From: Spirochaetia bacterium
Lineage (GTDB): Bacteria > Spirochaetota > UBA4802 > UBA5550
Length of the DNA: 64,000 nucleotides
Assembly: GCA_009885955.1 (NCBI GenBank)
Contig: VFJS01000002.1
Location: forward strand, 62,001-126,000
Direction: 5' to 3'
Below, one piece after another: positions 44,963 through 57,856 of the stretch. The notes under the pieces were generated by a model, which saw nothing but the letters and a program-made list of their open reading frames with translations, searched no databases and was not told the DNA's origin. How positions within the stretch are numbered: position 1 is the stretch's first letter; each line of letters starts with the position of its first letter. The position numbers were made by a program, and so were the translations under genes.

Positions 44963-46234
44963 TCAATTCATCCAGGGCGGCAGAAGAATCTTTCCGTCGG
45001 CTGTTTTTAACGGGAATATTTGGACCCTGGTCTCTTTTTGCCATTGTATGATTCCGGTTACAACACCCTTTTCTGGATCATCGGATGGTATAACCTGGTG
45101 TGATTTCTTATCAAAAGCGATTCTGCCGTAGGCGCCCATGAGGCTCAGGTTTTCCAGCGCCTTAATAACATCATCCGTTTCAGTGGTGCCGGCTTTTTCT
45201 ATTGCTTCTTTCAATGTATATACAGCCATGTAGCTTGATGATGTCCCGTATCCTTCGGGTTCGAGGCCGTATTTTTTCTTATATGCCTCGACAAACTTCG
45301 ATGTCCATGGCGATATTTTATTTGCCGGGGCGTTCCCTCCATTAACCAGGTTAACGATGAGGTATTCCCCTTTTCCCCCGGTGGCTTTCCAGAAACCCGG
45401 CTGCTGGCCGGCATTGACATATCCCATGGGCAGGGCTTTCAGTTTCATGTCGCTCCACTGCTTAAGTAGAATTGAGCTCTCGGGCATATCCATCCACAGG
45501 AAAATTATATCGGCACCTTTATTTTTCGCATCATTGAGGCCTATTGAGAAATCCGAGGCCCCGGTTGGATATATTTTTGTGTCAAGGACATTCCATTTTT
45601 TTTCCGTAAGGAGTTTTTTAATATTGTCGGCTGCTCTTTTTGCGTGCTCCACATCCTGTACCATGATATAGACGTTGTTGAAGCCGCTGCTCTTTTTAAT
45701 CTCTTCAAAAATTGCCATGAAATCAGCTGACATGATCCCGACATGGCTGGTGATCCTGAAACAATATTTATACTTAGTATAGTCGCTCTCCACCTTCTTA
45801 TGGTAGGCCGGGGTAAGAACTCCGATTGAAAGAATGCTTATTTTTTTATGTTTGCTCAACAGGTCCATTGCTGCCAGGGCAGCTTCCGAGCGGGCAGGGC
45901 CGCCGATGATAAAATCAGCCTTTTTTTCAAGAATAAGTTTCTCAAGGCCCATGAGCGCGTCATTCACAGGGACATTCATCTCCAGGTCCCTTGTGTCAAT
46001 CATCTCGACCTGGAAGGGGAGTTTTTTGCCTCCAATGGAAACACCGCCTGCAGCATTAATTTCTTCAACAGCCAGTTTTATTCCCCTTTCTCCCACCCAG
46101 CCTTCAAGAAAGGCAGTTGGAAGCGGGGCACCGATTACTATTGAAGTTTTTGCAGGTTTGCAGGAAATAGAAAATACTGAAACGGATAAGATGATGCTGA
46201 AAATTATTGATTGTTTAAAAAATATTTTAATCAT
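44963..46234 (-). CDS. Liv-type substrate-binding lipoprotein, copy 1
   Basis: ATG at 46234 (GGAAGTGA before it) gives 423 residues with a lipobox ending 'SISC' (Cys about 22). The periplasmic part is a type I binding protein of the Leu/Ile/Val family ('GERGIKLAVEEINAAGGV', 'IIGGPARSEAALAAMDLL', 'GTSSSYMAVYTLKEAIEKAG'). It is very similar throughout to the upstream gene, showing a tandem duplication. Residues lining the ligand cleft cannot be assigned, so whether both bind the same compound is open. Confidence 0.9.
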   Translation of the reverse strand: MIKIFFKQSIIFSIILSVSVFSISCKPAKTSIVIGAPLPTAFLEGWVGERGIKLAVEEINAAGGVSIGGKKLPFQVEMIDTRDLEMNVPVNDALMGLEKLILEKKADFIIGGPARSEAALAAMDLLSKHKKISILSIGVLTPAYHKKVESDYTKYKYCFRITSHVGIMSADFMAIFEEIKKSSGFNNVYIMVQDVEHAKRAADNIKKLLTEKKWNVLDTKIYPTGASDFSIGLNDAKNKGADIIFLWMDMPESSILLKQWSDMKLKALPMGYVNAGQQPGFWKATGGKGEYLIVNLVNGGNAPANKISPWTSKFVEAYKKKYGLEPEGYGTSSSYMAVYTLKEAIEKAGTTETDDVIKALENLSLMGAYGRIAFDKKSHQVIPSDDPEKGVVTGIIQWQKETRVQIFPLKTADGKILLPPWMN

Positions 46235-46278
46235 AACATCACTTCCATTATTTAGAATTTTACCAGGCAATCCGTTAT

Positions 46279-46301
46279 ATATAATACAATATGTATTATA
46301 T
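46279..46301. promoter_or_regulatory. Perfect palindrome before binding-protein copy 1
   Basis: ATATAATAC (46279-46287) and GTATTATAT (46293-46301) flank a five-base centre, 45 bases before the start codon. A related dyad precedes copy 2, suggesting a shared regulator. Confidence 0.45.
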
Positions 46302-46312
46302 TAAACACTATT

Positions 46313-46370
46313 TTTTAATGAAACTGCTTTCCCTTTATTCTTGCTGAGGGTAAAAACAGTTTCATTAAAA
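46313..46370. repeat. 14-bp inverted repeat between the two binding-protein genes
   Basis: TTTTAATGAAACTG (46313-46326) and CAGTTTCATTAAAA (46357-46370) enclose 30 bases containing CCCT/AGGG that could pair inside. It begins 40 bases after the copy 2 stop. It may attenuate or stabilise the copy 2 transcript ahead of the rest of the operon. Confidence 0.55.
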
Positions 46371-46409
46371 TTTATCAGGCAAACTTATTTTAAAAAATAA
46401 TTTTGATAA

Positions 46410-47675
46410 TTACATCCAGGGGGGAAGCAGTACTTTCCCTTCAGCTGTCTTCGGCGGGAAAATCTGGACACGCTTGCCTTTCTGCCACTGGATAATACTT
46501 GTCACAGCGCCTTTCTCTGGATCAAGTGACGATATGACCTGGTGTGATTTTTTATCAAAGCTGATTTTTCCGTACACGCCCATGAGGTCAATATTTTCCA
46601 ATTCTTTTATCACCGCGTCAGTGTCAAGGCTGCCGGCTTTTTCTATTGCTGCCTTTAAAGTGTAAATTGCCATATAGCTCGAAGACGTGCCGTAACCTTC
46701 AGGTTCAAGGCCGTATTTTTTCTTATAAGCTTCGACAAATTTCATTGTCCAGGGGGTGATATTGGACGGGGCGTTGCCGCCATTAACCAGGTTAACCAGG
46801 AGAAATTCCCCTTTTCCTTCTGTGGCTTTCCAGAATCCCGGCTGTTCTGCAGCGTTGACGAATCCCATGGGCAGGGCTTTCAGCTTCATCCCGCTCCACT
46901 GCTTCAGCAGAATGGAACTTTCAGGCATATCCATCCACAGGAAGAGTATATTTGCGCCTTTGTTTTTTGCATCATTGAGGCCAACTGAAAAGTCTGATGC
47001 TCCGGTGGGATAAATCTTCGTATCGATAACATTCCAGCCCTTGTCGGTCAGGAGCTTTTTCATGTATTCGCCGCCCTTCCTGGCATGCTCCACGTCCTGG
47101 ACCATGATATATACATTATTAAATCCGTGTCCCTTTTTTATATCCTCAAAAAGCATCATGAATTCATTGGCCATAACGCCTACATGGCTCGTAATCCTGA
47201 AGCAGTACTTGTATTTATCATAATTTTCCGAAACTTTTTTCGTGTAGGCCGGTGTGAGGGCCCCTGTTGTGAGGATGCTTATTTTTTTATGCTTGCTCAG
47301 CAGATCCATAGCTGCAAGAGCGGCTTCGGAACGGATTGGGCCTCCCACGATAAAATCAGCCTTTTTTTCAAGGATGAGTTTCTCCATTCCCATGAGCGCA
47401 TCATTGACAGGAACATTCATTTCCAGATCCCTGGTATCGATAACCTCAACTTTAAAGGGAATTTTTTTCCCTCCCACCGAGACCCCGCCTGCAGTATTGA
47501 TCTCTTCAACGGCAAGTTTGATCCCCTTTTCAGCGTCCCAGCCGTAAAGAAATGCAGTGGCGAGAGGAGATCCAATTACTATCTCTGTTTTTGCTGATTT
47601 GCACATGACAAAAAGCAGTGCAACAGAAAATAGGATAAAAATTCTGAGAAAACTCTTAATAATTTTATTGTTCAT
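46410..47675 (-). CDS. Liv-type substrate-binding lipoprotein, copy 2
   Basis: ATG at 47675 gives 421 residues with a lipobox at 'FVMC' (Cys about 25). Sequence runs parallel to copy 1 with most residues identical ('TAFLYGWDAEKGIKLAVEEI', 'IVGGPIRSEAALAAMDLL', 'GTSSSYMAIYTLKAAIEKAG'). Differences include the loop after the signal and 'GHGFNNVYIM'. It is first in the liv operon; a promoter and dyad lie directly upstream. Amounts of binding protein usually exceed transporter, which the intergenic hairpin may help achieve. Confidence 0.9.
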   Translation of the reverse strand: MNNKIIKSFLRIFILFSVALLFVMCKSAKTEIVIGSPLATAFLYGWDAEKGIKLAVEEINTAGGVSVGGKKIPFKVEVIDTRDLEMNVPVNDALMGMEKLILEKKADFIVGGPIRSEAALAAMDLLSKHKKISILTTGALTPAYTKKVSENYDKYKYCFRITSHVGVMANEFMMLFEDIKKGHGFNNVYIMVQDVEHARKGGEYMKKLLTDKGWNVIDTKIYPTGASDFSVGLNDAKNKGANILFLWMDMPESSILLKQWSGMKLKALPMGFVNAAEQPGFWKATEGKGEFLLVNLVNGGNAPSNITPWTMKFVEAYKKKYGLEPEGYGTSSSYMAIYTLKAAIEKAGSLDTDAVIKELENIDLMGVYGKISFDKKSHQVISSLDPEKGAVTSIIQWQKGKRVQIFPPKTAEGKVLLPPWM

Positions 47676-47709
47676 GGTAAAACATCCTTGATTAAAATAA
47701 TTCATTATT

Positions 47710-50081: not shown

Positions 50082-51449
50082 TCAGAATACCAGCCTCTTT
50101 ATGAAATCCATGAGCTGTGAAACCTTCCAGCATTCCAGCACTTCAGTGCAGTGCTTTTTATAGATGAGAACCGCCGAATCTCCAAATCCCCAGGTCATCG
50201 TCTCCTCGGGGTTAAGCCAGAATATCCTTTTTGCCCTGGATTTCATTTTTTCCAGAACCCACTCCATGGTATGGGAATAATTGTTCCTGCCGTCACCGAT
50301 GATGATGACCGTTGTCCTGGAATTTATTGTATCCATATAGTTTTCGTGGAACCGGAGGAGTACATTCCCGTAATCGGTATAGGAATTGTAACTGATACCG
50401 GCATCGGTGAGTGCCATGGCGATCCCGGTATGTATATCATGGTCTTTAAAAAAATCCGTTACTTCTCCAAGATCGTTCACAAAGACAAAGCTCCGCACCT
50501 TGCTGAACTGATCTTGTAAAGAATAAAGGAGAGTGAGCATGAATTGTGAAGCATTCTTCACAGAGTTTGATACATCGCACAGGGCAACGATTTTTCCCTT
50601 TGATTTTTTTCTTTTTTTCCAGATGAGTTCGAACGGTATTCCTCCATACTGCTGGCTGCGCCGGATAGTGCGCTTGATATCGATCCTGCCATGACTGTTC
50701 CTTTTTTCACGCCGTGCGATTTCGTCCCGTATCCTCCTGACAAGCTCATGTACAGCCCGTTTCATCTCTTCGGCATCATCAATGTTCAGGGCCCTGAATC
50801 CCGTGTTCATCAGCCTGGAATTCCCCTGACGGGTCTTGTACGCTTTCCAGTTATTTTTTTCGTTTTCCAAAAGATCCCGGGAAAGGGCCTTCAGCTTTGC
50901 CGTTCTTTCCCCGATTATTCTGCGGATATAGGCAATGTCATCAATTTCCTCCCCATGGCTTTCGAGAAGTTCAAGAAGGAGTGATAGCTGTTCACCCCAT
51001 TTATCTTTCTCCATCCTTTCCCCGGCTTTCATGGACCTGTATGCCGGCATGATGGTATAGGGATTGCTCTCCCCGGTATTGGCGCCGGGCAAACTGAAAA
51101 GATACGGCATCATGCCTTCTATCCCGCTGAGCATAAAGTCCCTGAACTCAGAGGTGAAATCGTCACCCCGTTCTGAAAAGATATCAGCTATTCTTCCCAT
51201 GGTGCCGGATAGAATATCATCGGTGCCCGAATGTTCATGCTTCTCAAAGTAGAGATGAAAGAGCCGGTGGAATTCGGGGATATCTCCCGATTTTTTTATG
51301 AGAGTGGATTCAAGGAGTGCCCTGAATTGCCCCTTGTCAAGCAGGTCTATATGTTCCAGGCCTCTGAGGCAATCCAGTGTTTCCGAAGGAGATATCCTTA
51401 TGCCGGGCTTTCTCAGCTGGTGTACAAATTCTTCTATGGTTTTTTTCAC
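50082..51449 (-). CDS. VWA-domain (CoxE-like) protein
   Basis: The 455-residue protein (GTG start, GAGAGGGG upstream) has a helical N-terminal part and a C-terminal von Willebrand A domain of the CoxE type. The MIDAS pattern appears as 'CDVSNSVKNASQF' near residue 295, with a later Thr and 'IIGDGRNN' near 397. It follows the MoxR-type ATPase by 15 bases. In CO dehydrogenase clusters CoxD/CoxE insert metal or sulfur into the enzyme, but no coxSLM genes lie in the window. Confidence 0.85.
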   Translation of the reverse strand: MKKTIEEFVHQLRKPGIRISPSETLDCLRGLEHIDLLDKGQFRALLESTLIKKSGDIPEFHRLFHLYFEKHEHSGTDDILSGTMGRIADIFSERGDDFTSEFRDFMLSGIEGMMPYLFSLPGANTGESNPYTIMPAYRSMKAGERMEKDKWGEQLSLLLELLESHGEEIDDIAYIRRIIGERTAKLKALSRDLLENEKNNWKAYKTRQGNSRLMNTGFRALNIDDAEEMKRAVHELVRRIRDEIARREKRNSHGRIDIKRTIRRSQQYGGIPFELIWKKRKKSKGKIVALCDVSNSVKNASQFMLTLLYSLQDQFSKVRSFVFVNDLGEVTDFFKDHDIHTGIAMALTDAGISYNSYTDYGNVLLRFHENYMDTINSRTTVIIIGDGRNNYSHTMEWVLEKMKSRAKRIFWLNPEETMTWGFGDSAVLIYKKHCTEVLECWKVSQLMDFIKRLVF

Positions 51450-51464
51450 CGGCCCCTCTCCGGT

Positions 51465-52394
51465 CTATCCGATTGTTGCGGAACGCGCCTGACGCGCCAG
51501 GTCGTTTATATTTTCAAGGGCCTTATTCAGATCAGAGCGGTGCTTGATTACAGTTGCAAGAGTCGATTGAATTGTATTGTGGTCGAGCTCAAGGGAATTC
51601 AGGTGTACCATTGCCCTGGCCCAGTCAATGGATTCGCTTATGCTGGGAAGCTTCTTTAGATCCATTTTTCTGAGAGCGTTGACTGCAGCGACAACCTGCT
51701 TCGCGGCAGCAGGAGCTATACCAGGGACCCTGCTTTCGATGATCCTTGACTCCAGCGCCGGTTCCGGAAAATCGAGATAGAGATGGAGGCACCTTCTCTT
51801 CAAGGCATCGCTCATCTCCCTTGTATCGTTGCTTGTAAGGACAACAAGGGGTATGTGCTTGGCCTTCAGCGTTCCCAGTTCCGGAATGCTGACCTGGAAG
51901 TCGCTGAGAACCTCCAGGAGGAATGCCTCGAATTCAGGGTCAGACTTGTCTATTTCGTCAATGAGGAGGACCGATGGACGGTCTGAGAGAATTGCCTTTA
52001 ACAGGGGCCTGGGCAGGATGAAGCGCGGTGAAAAAAAAGCGTCTTCATGCCCGGCAATCGTCTCCACACCGTCGGAAAGGTTCTTCGAGTTTTTAAGGAG
52101 GTCGCCGATTTTTTCTTTAAGCATCTGGGTGTAGAGGATCTGTTTTGCATACTCCCATTCATAAAGGGCCTTGCTTTCATCGAGCCCTTCATAGCACTGA
52201 AGCCGTATGAGTTCCTGGCCCTCTGAAATTGCCAGTGCCTTGGCCAGTTCGGTTTTGCCCACGCCTGCAGGGCCTTCCACAAATAGGGGCTTCCCCAGTT
52301 TGTACGAAAGGAAAACTACCGTTGCTATCTGTACGGAGCAGATATATCCGGCGCTCTCCAATTTCTCATGGACGTCTTTAATCGTATCAAACAT
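51465..52394 (-). CDS. MoxR-type AAA+ ATPase (CoxD-like)
   Basis: The 309-residue ATPase has Walker A GPAGVGKT (41-48), Walker B 'VLLIDEIDKSD', sensor 1 'VVLTSNDTREM' and arginine-finger region 'ALKRRCLH'. The 'CYEGLDESKALYEWEY' stretch after Walker A is typical of the CoxD-like MoxR branch. AAGGG lies six bases before the ATG. With the VWA protein it should form a chaperone that matures an unknown partner enzyme. Confidence 0.9.
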   Translation of the reverse strand: MFDTIKDVHEKLESAGYICSVQIATVVFLSYKLGKPLFVEGPAGVGKTELAKALAISEGQELIRLQCYEGLDESKALYEWEYAKQILYTQMLKEKIGDLLKNSKNLSDGVETIAGHEDAFFSPRFILPRPLLKAILSDRPSVLLIDEIDKSDPEFEAFLLEVLSDFQVSIPELGTLKAKHIPLVVLTSNDTREMSDALKRRCLHLYLDFPEPALESRIIESRVPGIAPAAAKQVVAAVNALRKMDLKKLPSISESIDWARAMVHLNSLELDHNTIQSTLATVIKHRSDLNKALENINDLARQARSATIG

Positions 52395-52912: not shown

Positions 52913-53560
52913 ATGAACATGGAAAATATACATCAAGTGTTAAGCAGTTTTGAGAGAGCTCTTGTTGCCGTTGACAGGGTTGCGGCAGAAAAAATTTTAG
53001 CAGAGTATGGCCCGGGTTTTGATCCGGTAAACTTCGTTGACACTGTAATCGTACAAACCCTGGACAATATAGGGAATGCATGGGCAAAAGGGGATGTCTC
53101 CCTGTCCCAGGTATACATGAGCGGGAAGATATGTGAATCACTTGTTAATTCCATAATGCCTTCAGGCGGGATGAAGCGTATAGAACACCCTCCCATGGCC
53201 ATAGCCGTTCTTGAAGATATGCATATGCTGGGAAAACGGATAGTCTATTCCGTGCTTAAATCAAAGGGCTACGACATTATCGATTACTCATCAATGAAGA
53301 CCGGGGAACTGGTTGGCCGGGTAATAAGGGACGGAATCAGGATACTGCTCCTGTCTGTACTCATGCTCCCGTCAGCCCTGCATATAAAGGAAGTGAGGAA
53401 AAGGCTCGATAATGCCGGCCATGAGGTAAAAATAATAGTCGGCGGCGCCCCATTCAATTTTGACGCAGAACTCTGGAGAGAGACCGGGGCGGATGCCATG
53501 GGGAGGAGTGCATCGCAGGCCGTGGAAATAATTAATCGGTTGTATGAGAGGCCCCAATGA
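52913..53560 (+). CDS. Corrinoid-binding protein (MtaC/MtbC-like)
   Basis: ATG at 52913 with GAGG seven bases before gives 215 residues. The N-terminal four-helix cap (about 5-90) carries 'TLDNIGNAWAKGDVSLSQVY', and the C-terminal Rossmann domain has the cobalamin triad: DMHMLG (DxHxxG, about 102-107, His being the cobalt ligand), 'LLLSVLML' and 'VGGAPF'. Such proteins carry a methyl group on cobalt between a substrate methyltransferase and an acceptor methyltransferase. It overlaps the next gene by four bases. Neither a substrate methyltransferase nor a RamA-like activase is present in the window. Confidence 0.88.
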   Translation: MNMENIHQVLSSFERALVAVDRVAAEKILAEYGPGFDPVNFVDTVIVQTLDNIGNAWAKGDVSLSQVYMSGKICESLVNSIMPSGGMKRIEHPPMAIAVLEDMHMLGKRIVYSVLKSKGYDIIDYSSMKTGELVGRVIRDGIRILLLSVLMLPSALHIKEVRKRLDNAGHEVKIIVGGAPFNFDAELWRETGADAMGRSASQAVEIINRLYERPQ

Positions 53561-54600
53561 CAGTAAAAACGATGACCTCCATGGAGCGTGTCATGACAGC
53601 GCTCCAGTTTAAAGAGCCCGACCGTGTCCCCCTGTTCCTGCTGCTCACCATGCATGGAGCCAGAGAACTGGGAATGAGCATTAGAGACTATTTTTCAAGC
53701 GGTGAGAATGTTGCTCTTGGCCAGATGATGCTCCTGAAAAAATATGGTCATGATTGTGTATACCCTTTTTTTTATGCCCCGGTAGAAGTAGAAGCAAGGG
53801 GAGGCGAGGTTATCTACCGCGATGACGGGCCGCCGAATTCCGGAGAGCCGATCATAAAAAAATACGACGACATCATGAAGCTTAAACAGGTAAGCGTAAA
53901 GGATAGCCCGCCGCTGGTAAAGGTTTTAAAAGCTATTGAACTTTTAAAATCAGAGGCCGGGGATCAGGTACCCATCATTGGCGTTGTCATGTCGCCTTTT
54001 TCTGTTCCGGTCATGCAGATGGGTTTTGACAGGTATATAGAGCTCATGTATGAAAATGAGGCATATTTTAATAAGCTAATGGAAATTAATGAAGAATTCT
54101 GCGTTGAATGGGCAAACGCCCAGCTTGATGCAGGGGCCGCTGCAATTTGCTATTTCGACCCGGTCTCATCAACATCCATTATCCCCAGGTCTAAATACCT
54201 GGAAACAGGTTTTAAAATTGCCAAACGCACAATAGGCAGGATAAAGGGCCCCACTGCAACTCATATGGCTTCGGGAAGGTGCTTTGAAATAACAGGTGAC
54301 CTTGCGGAAACGGGCACTGCCGCAGTGGGTGTCAGCGTCGATGAGGATCTATCTATATTGAAATCAAGGTGCCGGGGGAGGCTGTCGATTATCGGCAATC
54401 TCAACGGCATAGAGATGAGGCGGTGGTCCGCTGAAAAGGCCAGGGATACGGTACGCCAGGCTATAGTTGATGCCGGCGCAGGCGGTGGATTTATCCTTTC
54501 CGATAACCATGGGGAAATTCCCTTCCAGGTTCCCGAGGAGGTCCTTTTTTCCATAACAGAAGCCGTGGAACAGTTCGGATATTATCCCCTGAATAAATGA
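53557..54600 (+). CDS. UroD-family methyltransferase (MtaA-like)
   Basis: The 347-residue protein belongs to the UroD/MtaA/MtbA superfamily, a TIM barrel that moves methyl groups between corrinoid proteins and a thiol. N-terminal 'ERVMTALQFKEPDRVPLF' and 'IGVVMSPFSVPVMQMGFDRY' fit. In MtaA/MtbA zinc is bound by an HxC pair and a C-terminal Cys; here the first site reads 'THMASGRC' (near 234-241) and the second 'LSDNHGE', so the classical ligands are not evident. It may be a changed or non-thiol enzyme. Both ends overlap neighbours by four bases, giving strong coupling to the corrinoid protein and kinase. Confidence 0.8.
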   Translation: MTVKTMTSMERVMTALQFKEPDRVPLFLLLTMHGARELGMSIRDYFSSGENVALGQMMLLKKYGHDCVYPFFYAPVEVEARGGEVIYRDDGPPNSGEPIIKKYDDIMKLKQVSVKDSPPLVKVLKAIELLKSEAGDQVPIIGVVMSPFSVPVMQMGFDRYIELMYENEAYFNKLMEINEEFCVEWANAQLDAGAAAICYFDPVSSTSIIPRSKYLETGFKIAKRTIGRIKGPTATHMASGRCFEITGDLAETGTAAVGVSVDEDLSILKSRCRGRLSIIGNLNGIEMRRWSAEKARDTVRQAIVDAGAGGGFILSDNHGEIPFQVPEEVLFSITEAVEQFGYYPLNK

Positions 54601-56660
54601 AAAAACATAAAAAATACTCCATTGCCCTCTGCGCCTACTATAAAAAAGAGGCTTCGGAAATAATTAAAAACAGCGGAATCTCTGATGTTGATATTATCAC
54701 ATTTGCTCCCAAATGCGACCGGGGCAGGTTTGACTGGAAAGAACTTGAAACACTGTTTAAGAAAACCGGCACAGGCAGCCATGTCCATATCATTGGAAGC
54801 TGCTGTATTTCGGGAATTGAAGTCCCTGACAGTTTAAAAAGCCGCTATTCACTCCATGAAATAAAGAACTGTTTACATCTACTCTTAAACAACAATCTGG
54901 TAGACAGTTATGTAGCTAAAGGCTCCTATATCATGTCGCCGGGATGGCTTGTCCAGTGGCGATCCATAATGAAAATGTGGGGATTCAGCGAATCCGGGCT
55001 CAATTGTTTTTTTCACGATACGGTAAACAGGCTCACACTCCTCGACACCGGCGTTTATCCGGATATCACAAAGTATCTGGATGACTTTTCACAGCATGTA
55101 AAATTACCTGTCCAGACCATCCCTGCGGGACTTGATTACATGGAATTATTCCTGAAAAATATACTCTCTTCAAACCATAGAGACGGTACGAAAGAAAATC
55201 CCGGCCGCGAATTTGAATTCTCACGGAAAGTTCATGCTGATTATGCCATGTCAGTTGATCTTTTTTTTGATTTAACAGAGAAAAAAAGTGAACCTGAACT
55301 TGTATCTTCGATATATGAATTTTTCCATATGCTCTTCGCACCGGCCAGGTCTCTGTATATCTCCCACAGGGACGGTACTGAAAAAATTGAAAGATCCTCG
55401 GGGATGGATGAGGGCATGAGCCTGGAGTATTTTGGCCTCGCCTTTCATGAGAATTTCAAAATTACCGGGCACGGTGACGGGTTGTATGTAAAAATCATCA
55501 ATAACGGCGAGATACTGGGAATGATTTTCCTTGAAGAGCTGAAATTTCCCGATTACATGAATCACTACCTTAACCTCGTTCTGCAGATTGCGCCGGTATG
55601 CGCACTTTCCATCAGAAACATGCGAAAAACCGATGAGATACTTCAGGCGAGACACAGCCTTGCTGAGAGTGAAAAGAAATTCCGGACACTTGCCACCCTC
55701 TCCCCTGCAGGCATTTTTCTTACCGATGCCGCGGGAAAGTTTCTCTATGTCAATCCGGGATGGGAGAAAATAACAGGGCTTTCGCTGGAAGAGATGCAGG
55801 CCCCCGATTGGATTTCACTTATTGATCCTGATGACAGGGAAAAATTCAGGGATTCTTTCATCAGTCACCTGACTGACGGAAAAGAATGGAGCATGAATTT
55901 CAGGATGATCAATAAAGACGGGATCAGAAAGTGGGTTCTCGGATTAACTACATCCCTGTTGAGTGATGATAAAAATTTTGACGGATATGTGGGAATACTA
56001 TTTGACATTACAGAGATAAAGAAAAACGAGATCAAACTGAAGGAAGCGCTTACCGAAAAGGAATTTCTTATGAAGGAGATTCACCACAGGGTTAAGAACA
56101 ATCTTCAGCTCGTTTCAAGCATGCTCAGCCTTCAGGAAATTATTTCTGAGAAGGGGGAAATTAAAGCCTTTACCGAAGCAAAAAACCGGATTAGATCCAT
56201 CGCGTCGGTGCATGAACTCCTGTATAAATCCGACAGCCTCGGTAAAATTGATTTGATGGGGTATCTTTCAAACATCATTGAAAACCTTGAGGTCAGCCTT
56301 GGAATCGGGTTCAAGGTCAGTATTAAATTTGAAACCCCGGAAATTAGCCTGGGCATCAGGCAGGCGGTACCCCTGGGCATTATTATTAATGAACTTGTGA
56401 CAAACTCCATGAAATATGCCTTTCCTGCAGGATTTGCAGATCCCGGTATTTCTCTTGTATTCAGGCAGATGGACGAAATTATAGAGATTAGCATCAGTGA
56501 TAATGGAATCGGCCTCCCCGAAGGTTTTAATATAGAAAAAAGTGAAACCCTGGGCCTCAGGCTTGTGCATATGCTCCTGAAGCAGCTGAAGGGAAATATC
56601 AGGATCAATCGTGGGAATGGCACGCAGTTTATCATTGACTTCATGAAGAAACTCCAGTGA
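54597..56660 (+). CDS. Sensor histidine kinase with novel N-terminal domain
   Basis: The 687-residue kinase is soluble. Residues about 1-190 form a domain I do not recognise with 'HIIGSCCISG'; it loosely recalls DUF1638 in layout, tentatively. A GAF-like segment (about 235-340), a PAS domain (about 355-470, 'LSPAGIFLTDAAGKFLYVN') and a HisKA_2 domain ('EIHHRVKNNLQL', His near 496) follow, then a HATPase with 'NELVTNSMKYAFP' and 'ISDNGIGLPEG'. All kinase motifs are intact. No response regulator lies nearby. Coupling to the corrinoid and methyltransferase genes suggests it reads methyl or corrinoid status. Confidence 0.85.
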   Translation: MKKHKKYSIALCAYYKKEASEIIKNSGISDVDIITFAPKCDRGRFDWKELETLFKKTGTGSHVHIIGSCCISGIEVPDSLKSRYSLHEIKNCLHLLLNNNLVDSYVAKGSYIMSPGWLVQWRSIMKMWGFSESGLNCFFHDTVNRLTLLDTGVYPDITKYLDDFSQHVKLPVQTIPAGLDYMELFLKNILSSNHRDGTKENPGREFEFSRKVHADYAMSVDLFFDLTEKKSEPELVSSIYEFFHMLFAPARSLYISHRDGTEKIERSSGMDEGMSLEYFGLAFHENFKITGHGDGLYVKIINNGEILGMIFLEELKFPDYMNHYLNLVLQIAPVCALSIRNMRKTDEILQARHSLAESEKKFRTLATLSPAGIFLTDAAGKFLYVNPGWEKITGLSLEEMQAPDWISLIDPDDREKFRDSFISHLTDGKEWSMNFRMINKDGIRKWVLGLTTSLLSDDKNFDGYVGILFDITEIKKNEIKLKEALTEKEFLMKEIHHRVKNNLQLVSSMLSLQEIISEKGEIKAFTEAKNRIRSIASVHELLYKSDSLGKIDLMGYLSNIIENLEVSLGIGFKVSIKFETPEISLGIRQAVPLGIIINELVTNSMKYAFPAGFADPGISLVFRQMDEIIEISISDNGIGLPEGFNIEKSETLGLRLVHMLLKQLKGNIRINRGNGTQFIIDFMKKLQ

Positions 56661-56719: not shown

Positions 56720-57856
56720 ATGGAAGAAATTAAAAAAAATCCCATGTACCGGTATCTTATCCTGCTCACCGCAAGCTCCATGCTCGGGCTGCAGGCATGG
56801 CAGACAATGTTTAATAATTTTGCCGTTGATGTTGCCTCTCTTGACGGGAATCATGTGGGGATGATTCAGACGGTCAGGGAAATCCCCGGCCTCCTTGCCC
56901 TCCTGGCAATTTTTGTCATGAGGGTCATGCATGAACACAGCCTTGCAGCTTTTTCAATAATTATTCTCGGGGCAGGCATGGCCATAACCGGCCTTTTCCC
57001 GTCATATCCGGGTTTACTTGCCACAACCCTTTTTATGAGTTTCGGATTTCATTACTATGAGACTGCTAATCAGTCCCTGACACTCCAGTATTTTGACAGT
57101 AGGTCATCGCCAAAAGTTTTAGGAAAGCAGAGGAGCCTGGGCGCCCTTTCGAATATATTTGCCAGTGCTATCATATTTTTTATCGCAGGCGTAATTGACT
57201 ACAGCCATATGTACATTTTTTTCGGTTTGATTATTATAGCTGCCGGAGTCTGGGCATTGTCGCAGAATCCCTCAGACAGTAAAAAGGCAAAGCAGCATAA
57301 GAAATTCATCATGAAGAGGAAATACACCCTGTTCTACATCCTCACTTTCCTGGCAGGGGCGCGGAGGCAGATTTTCATTGCCTTTGCCGGGTTTCTTCTT
57401 GTAAAAAATTTTCATTACAGCATTAAAGAGATAGCGGCTCTTTTTGTAATAAACAATGTAATAAATTATTTTTTAAGCCCGGTCATTGGCAGGGCAATTG
57501 TCAGGTTTGGCGAACGAAGGATTATGACACTGGAATATTTGTCTCTTATTCTAATATTTCTGTCCTATGCATATACAGATTCCAGGGTAACGGCCGGCGC
57601 GCTGTACATACTGGATAACATATTCCTGAATTTTAATATTACGGTGAACACCTATTTCCAGAAAATAGGCGCCAGGGAGGATATTGCTCCGAGCATGGCC
57701 ATCGGCTTCACGATAAATCACATTGCTGCAGTTATCATTCCTGTAACCGGGGGCATCCTCTGGCTGATGAATTACCGTATCCCTTTCATAACAGGCGCAT
57801 GCCTGTGTGCGGTTTCATTATTTGCAGCCCAGTTTATCAAAACGAAAGAAATCTGA
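56720..57856 (+). CDS. MFS transporter
   Basis: The 378-residue protein has about ten to twelve helices and major-facilitator traits, with a charged central loop ('PSDSKKAKQHKKF', near 190-205) between its halves. The motif A region is weak. It may be the exporter or importer of the compound sensed or used by the upstream corrinoid set, from which it is separated by 59 bases. It ends six bases before the convergent tlpA-like gene. Confidence 0.8.
   Translation: MEEIKKNPMYRYLILLTASSMLGLQAWQTMFNNFAVDVASLDGNHVGMIQTVREIPGLLALLAIFVMRVMHEHSLAAFSIIILGAGMAITGLFPSYPGLLATTLFMSFGFHYYETANQSLTLQYFDSRSSPKVLGKQRSLGALSNIFASAIIFFIAGVIDYSHMYIFFGLIIIAAGVWALSQNPSDSKKAKQHKKFIMKRKYTLFYILTFLAGARRQIFIAFAGFLLVKNFHYSIKEIAALFVINNVINYFLSPVIGRAIVRFGERRIMTLEYLSLILIFLSYAYTDSRVTAGALYILDNIFLNFNITVNTYFQKIGAREDIAPSMAIGFTINHIAAVIIPVTGGILWLMNYRIPFITGACLCAVSLFAAQFIKTKEI

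Follow-up and report, generated by a model that had tools for sequence, protein, structure and literature searches.

A corrinoid protein, a UroD-superfamily protein and a DUF1638 histidine kinase: a candidate reaction-based methyl-donor sensor in Spirochaetota

Introduction

What could a corrinoid protein and a UroD-superfamily protein contribute when they are encoded in one operon with a sensor kinase? The question is raised by three coupled genes in a 64,000-nucleotide stretch of DNA from a Spirochaetia bacterium (contig VFJS01000002.1, positions 62,001 to 126,000; hereafter the window), the last of which encodes a soluble histidine kinase that begins with a DUF1638 domain. This module is found in nine distantly related bacteria of the phylum, which suggests that a methylated compound may be sensed by reaction and not by binding alone. 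In the reading favored here, to which we assign a probability of about 0.5, the module is a reaction-based two-component sensor of a methyl donor, with DUF1638 and the kinase as its readout. Known bacterial sensors of methylated compounds mostly bind their ligand. In the literature searched, which was mostly open-access, no description was found of a corrinoid methyltransferase pair serving as a sensor input, and this is weak evidence of absence.

Three coupled genes

A check of the open reading frames (ORFs) of the window identified the three coupled ORFs as those of a corrinoid protein, a UroD-family protein and a soluble HisKA_2 kinase (Table 1), the whole kinase ORF spanning 54597-56660 on the + strand. 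An initial annotation of this DNA had described three frames with four-base overlaps as one coupled unit, and this description holds: ATGA is present at both junctions and the gene order is conserved. For the corrinoid gene the frame is open at an in-frame TTG (52910) as well, and the ATG at 52913 agrees with the start assigned to it. In comparison with the nearest relative, dN is 0.3-0.7 for the module genes and synonymous sites are saturated; because the proteins are conserved despite this saturation, all three ORFs are taken to be real genes under purifying selection.

The corrinoid protein matches the Pfam families B12-binding (6.6e-15) and B12-binding_2 (3.3e-7). It has the two-domain architecture of a corrinoid methyl carrier of the MtaC/MttC type, a B12-binding_2 cap followed by a B12-binding domain with DxHxxG (D102, H104, and G107), and this motif is invariant in the eight module copies compared (8/8). 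Its nearest curated families are TIGR02370 and MtgC, and its relatives in the Protein Data Bank (PDB) are MttC (7xcn) and MtmC (3ezx). Nevertheless, it lies below every curated cut-off among TIGR02370, MtgC, MtbC, and MtaC, with a best score of 70.2 bits against 215.3.

The kinase contains HisKA_2 (2.9e-23), PAS_3 (1.4e-16), and HATPase_c (2.4e-9) domains. With intact H, N, and G boxes at residues 496, 598, and 635 and no transmembrane-like stretch by hydropathy, it is a HisKA_2 histidine kinase and, as the initial annotation proposed, a soluble one. At its start, unmentioned in that annotation, residues 68-183 match DUF1638 in Pfam (8.4e-8; 32.7 bits, gathering cut-off 27). The region that we call "GAF-like" is so labeled from its position and its similarity to the relative at locus L077, and has no Pfam GAF match.

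Recurrence of the module

DUF1638 was surveyed in 393 genomes of the phylum; the neighborhoods were fetched and partners were then sought in them. The domain was found in 32 genomes, and in nine of these, which represent seven genera and four families, the order corrinoid protein, UroD, DUF1638, kinase is present: G000 (the window organism), G004 (L077), G059 (L111), G070 (L101), G102 (L104), G270 (L105), G320 (L100), G342 (L099), and G344 (L103). Across these copies, UroD identity to the window protein falls from 59% to 16% and the GC content of the loci ranges from 27 to 70%, so the gene order appears to have been kept over long divergence. The junctions in the relatives are mostly overlapping or a few bases apart.

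The position of DUF1638 between the methyltransferase-like protein and the kinase is variable in form. In L099, L100, L101, L103, and L111 it has a gene of its own, whereas in G000, G102, and G270 it forms one protein with the kinase. In G004 (L077:945-3571), UroD is fused in frame to DUF1638 and the GAF-like kinase resumes in another frame, a break that may perhaps be a frameshift in one long fusion. These fusions, to the kinase in three genomes and to UroD in one, link UroD, DUF1638, and the kinase in a chain. The kinase itself is of the HisKA type in L111 and of the HisKA_2 type in the other copies, while DUF1638 beside a kinase is constant.

In L099, L100, and L101, the gene after that of the kinase encodes a single-domain receiver; in L077 a receiver-PAS-kinase hybrid comes next, and the HisKA kinase of L111 has its own receiver. 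No receiver gene was found in the 64-kb window. Searches of contigs with the window kinase and of plasmids with a DUF1638-kinase returned kinase relatives only, matching mainly the C-terminal half, and no module.

The UroD protein as a putative donor-side methyltransferase

The UroD protein belongs to the URO-D family (PF01208, 2e-55), and its AlphaFold2 (AF2) model (pLDDT 90.6) has MtaA as its best PDB match (4ay7, TM score 0.87). It scores far under the NCBIfam cut-offs (mtaA_cmuA, 119.6 against 235.4 bits). The zinc ligands of MtaA are His237, Cys239, and Cys316. In an alignment in which the H-I-C stretch of MtaA is visible, the position of Cys239 is Ala, Gly, or Asn in all nine module proteins, and none of the nine has a Cys in the 316 region. 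The HxC...C ligands that mark the MtaA/MtbA thiol methyltransferases are thus missing, and a thiol-methylating acceptor role is unlikely. The initial annotation had assigned precisely this role to the UroD protein, and we do not retain it. The UroD superfamily also includes donor-side methyltransferases (MTI), namely MtvB, OdmB, VdmB, CdmB, and CmuA, and both CdmB and the Moorella O-demethylase function without zinc (PMC13222342). Because the acceptor cysteines are gone and the superfamily holds such enzymes, some of them zinc-free, the module UroD probably works on the donor side and not as an acceptor methyltransferase. Its fold and its position beside a corrinoid protein gene are those of an MTI of the MtvB/CdmB type, although the profile match to CdmB (9rui) is weak (1.3e-6).

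The same cysteine loss would also fit a different role, in which the corrinoid protein binds a cobamide, UroD acts non-catalytically, as a scaffold or as a partner that binds tetrapyrroles, and the module senses cobamide or redox state with no methyl transfer. Corrinoid-binding domains do act as sensors in CarH-type regulators, and most module genomes have no HemE match, as if the UroD fold had been kept for another purpose. We nonetheless consider this explanation improbable: the deep conservation of UroD beside a methyltransferase-type corrinoid protein is more easily explained by methyl transfer, and UroD methyltransferases that work without zinc are known, namely CdmB and the Moorella O-demethylase (PMC13222342).

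In a small tree of the UroD proteins, the window/L077 pair and the f35/L111 group were each well supported and the backbone lacked resolution.

DUF1638 and its link to corrinoid proteins

An alignment of 26 DUF1638 sequences shows no variation at Cys69 and Cys92 and very little at Cys12, Glu18, and Gly67. The AF2 model of the domain (pLDDT 89.8) gave no convincing fold match in the PDB. In Phaeobacter, the DUF1638 gene adjoins the gene for the corrinoid-binding portion of a split methionine synthase; mutants in DUF1638 and in a RamA-like activase have the same phenotype, and both genes are needed for B12-dependent methionine synthesis, although the authors propose no specific role for DUF1638 (PMC5764234). 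The link between DUF1638 and corrinoids was restated in 2025 for glycine betaine demethylation (PMC12478193). This link is not universal in the phylum studied here, because outside the module the neighbors of DUF1638 are mixed (histone-deacetylase-like, lactamase-like, acyl-CoA dehydrogenase, CobW, and RACo). At one such locus (L106:7866-10333, G017), a histone-deacetylase-family gene is directly followed by the DUF1638 gene.

Missing methyltransferase and activase partners

The MttB family is absent from all nine module genomes; MtaB, MtmB, and MtbB were not searched for. In seven of the nine, no UroD-superfamily protein was found besides that of the module; G000 has HemE as well and G344 one more. 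RACo, the corrinoid activase of the RamA type, was found in G000 and in none of the other eight. Completeness is 95% or more for eight of the nine genomes, but they are drafts, so that absences are never certain. For PF00809, each genome has one strong dihydropteroate-synthase-like match, and the further matches could be methionine synthase or acceptor enzymes. Taken together, the lack of MttB (9/9), of RACo (8/9), and of any other UroD (7/9) indicates that the module stands alone. The claim of the initial annotation that the cluster is without a dedicated substrate methyltransferase or activase is therefore upheld, as far as MttB and RACo are concerned. That annotation would have been abandoned if homologous clusters always came with a substrate methyltransferase, and they do not: MttB is found in none of the nine genomes and the module UroD is usually the only UroD, within the search described above.

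The RACo of G000 was considered as an activase of the module and judged less likely, since an AcsC/AcsE-like pair in the same genome, which we name as being of the Wood-Ljungdahl type and presume to be the usual client of RACo, can account for it. Among the relatives, G048 encodes at least 21 MttB-family methyltransferases.

Sensor or regulated enzyme

The coupled and conserved gene order, the lack of MttB and activase, and a kinase N-terminus from a corrinoid-associated family make signaling of a corrinoid or methyl state, as the initial annotation supposed, a reasonable inference. On the most economical reading, the corrinoid/UroD pair would be the input of the kinase and DUF1638 the adaptor. 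UroD would move a methyl group from a donor onto the Co(I) of its corrinoid partner, or in the opposite direction; DUF1638 would dock on the corrinoid/UroD pair and read its state, whether methylated, Co(II), or Co(I); and the attached GAF-like/PAS/HisKA_2 kinase would alter its autophosphorylation and hand the phosphate to a receiver, which is adjacent in three relatives and would lie elsewhere in the genome of the window organism. More specifically, and more tentatively than the sensor role as a whole, the donor may be detected through its demethylation onto cobalt, with DUF1638, wired to the kinase, reading the methyl-cobalt or redox state.

The main rival is an ordinary corrinoid methyltransferase with its own two-component regulator, in which the PAS/GAF-like regions sense the substrate and DUF1638 keeps the corrinoid active. 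It has a precedent, the strongest counter-example to a sensor: in the mec cassette, a catabolic cluster of anaerobic dichloromethane degraders, genes for a kinase (MecA), a corrinoid protein (MecB), a UroD-type MTI (MecC), and a receiver (MecD) are adjacent (PMC9768040). The role of DUF1638 elsewhere as a functional partner of methionine synthase would also suit such an enzyme. However, the mec cassette has an acceptor methyltransferase (MTII), MecF, and a PocR kinase, and among the annotated neighbors of the module no MTII, PocR kinase, or further methyltransferase was recognized. The genome-wide rarity of RACo and lack of MttB tell against the rival as well, and a mere activation role leaves the DUF1638-kinase fusion of three sampled genomes unexplained. 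We prefer the sensor because of the fusions of DUF1638 on both sides, the exchange of kinase type, and the lack of an adjacent acceptor, activase, or other methyltransferase, and regard the regulated enzyme as possible but rather unlikely.

Several points weigh against the sensor. Gene neighborhood cannot separate a sensor from a regulated enzyme, and the GAF-like/PAS regions of the kinase could sense another signal. With no activase, a corrinoid oxidized to Co(II) would remain trapped in that state unless it were restored by DUF1638 or some other reductant. The UroD subgroups (window/L077; L101; the rest) are highly divergent and are not united by the small tree; given this divergence, they need not share one donor. 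Finally, the corrinoid gene of L099 (11113-11763, G342) has one in-frame TGA, at codon 67, which is either a nonsense mutation or a sequencing error.

If the sensor reading is correct, gene control would be coupled directly to methyl-group chemistry through a covalent methyl-cobalt state. It would also explain why corrinoid methyltransferase pairs are kept by some bacteria with no adjacent acceptor enzyme, and would give a signaling role to DUF1638, a family for which the discoverers of its mutant phenotype made no specific proposal (PMC5764234). Since several relatives encode DUF1638 and the kinase as separate genes, this reading is testable with purified parts.

A possible link to mercury methylation

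A third possibility ties the module to HgcAB, which is itself a corrinoid methyltransferase and which the module would support or monitor. The gene hgcA is present in eight of the nine module genomes and in 46 of the 393 overall (p 1.6e-7, uncorrected for genome kinship), and in G059 (L111:7308-13564) a MarR-hgcA-hgcB set immediately precedes the module in the same orientation, with the HgcA cap helix NVWCAAGK. The cap-helix motif was seen in most HgcA copies inspected, three high-GC loci not being called cleanly. Against this, the adjacency is confined to G059, no recurrence having been found where it was looked for elsewhere; G270 has the module and no hgcA; and hgcA is also associated, more weakly, with DUF1638 where the module is lacking (p 1e-4). 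Because of this last association, a common anaerobic lifestyle may be the simplest explanation of the co-occurrence, and we hold a functional link to be very improbable.

The window organism's own genome carries hgcA and hgcB (L136:8729-10069, G000:C76), which makes it a putative mercury methylator. At two other loci, L150:6083-10327 (G048) and L155:6513-10232 (G081), an HxC-type UroD gene and an ArsR-like gene stand beside an Acr3-resembling transporter gene and hgcA.

Surroundings of the operon

A major facilitator superfamily (MFS) gene (56720-57856), real by its Pfam match, begins 59 bp past the end of the kinase gene. The initial annotation had included this transporter in the arrangement; no MFS gene was seen beside the module in the relatives' neighborhoods, the locus of the nearest relative being near a contig end, and the transporter was rejected as part of the module since it is not conserved. 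A search for riboswitches and other Rfam families gave no match, either across the window or ahead of the operon, and promoter and terminator scans gave matches at chance level only. Divergent from the operon, on the - strand, are genes for a MoxR-type AAA ATPase and a CoxE-like VWA protein (50082-52394), and, farther away on the same strand (44963-47705), two tandem and closely alike periplasmic binding proteins of the amino-acid type.

Table 1. Features of the module in the window.
Feature	Coordinates	Strand	Details
Corrinoid (B12-binding) protein	52913-53560	+	215 aa; cap domain and B12-binding domain; His-on DxHxxG; PF02310/PF02607
ATGA stop/start overlap, corrinoid protein to UroD	53557-53560	+	-4 spacing also in L077, L101, L104, L105
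UroD-superfamily protein	53557-54600	+	347 aa; MtaA-like fold; without the MtaA zinc cysteines; PF01208
ATGA stop/start overlap, UroD to DUF1638-kinase	54597-54600	+	-4 also in L100, L099; -11 in L104
DUF1638 domain, kinase N-terminus	54597-55196	+	residues 1 to ~190; PF07796; Cys12, Cys69, Cys92, Glu18 conserved
Rest of soluble histidine kinase: GAF-like region, PAS, HisKA_2, HATPase_c	55197-56660	+	from Pfam, motifs and hydropathy

Comparison with known systems

The corrinoid protein shares its two domains and DxHxxG with MtgC, MttC, and MtbC (TIGR02370), but it is far under their cut-offs and has no MttB partner in its genome. Similarly, the UroD fold is common to the module proteins and to MtaA/MtbA, from which they differ in having no HxC...C zinc site. 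With the MtvB, OdmB, VdmB, and CdmB systems the module shares a UroD fold encoded next to a corrinoid protein, zinc being dispensable in CdmB and the Moorella enzyme, whereas those systems have an MTII and usually an activase. The DUF1638 protein of Phaeobacter belongs to the same Pfam family (PF07796) and is likewise encoded beside the gene of a corrinoid-binding protein; it is free-standing, in a genome with a RamA-like activase, whereas here the domain is fused or adjacent to a histidine kinase.

The closest parallel in composition discussed here is the mec cassette of Dehalobacterium and Formimonas, which also brings together a histidine kinase, a corrinoid protein, a UroD-superfamily MTI, and a receiver (PMC9768040; PMC10344839). 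In addition to MecF and a kinase with PocR, that cassette encodes a transporter, additional UroD proteins and, in most cases, reactivation genes, whereas the module consists only of the corrinoid protein, UroD, DUF1638, and the kinase, joined in some relatives by a receiver.

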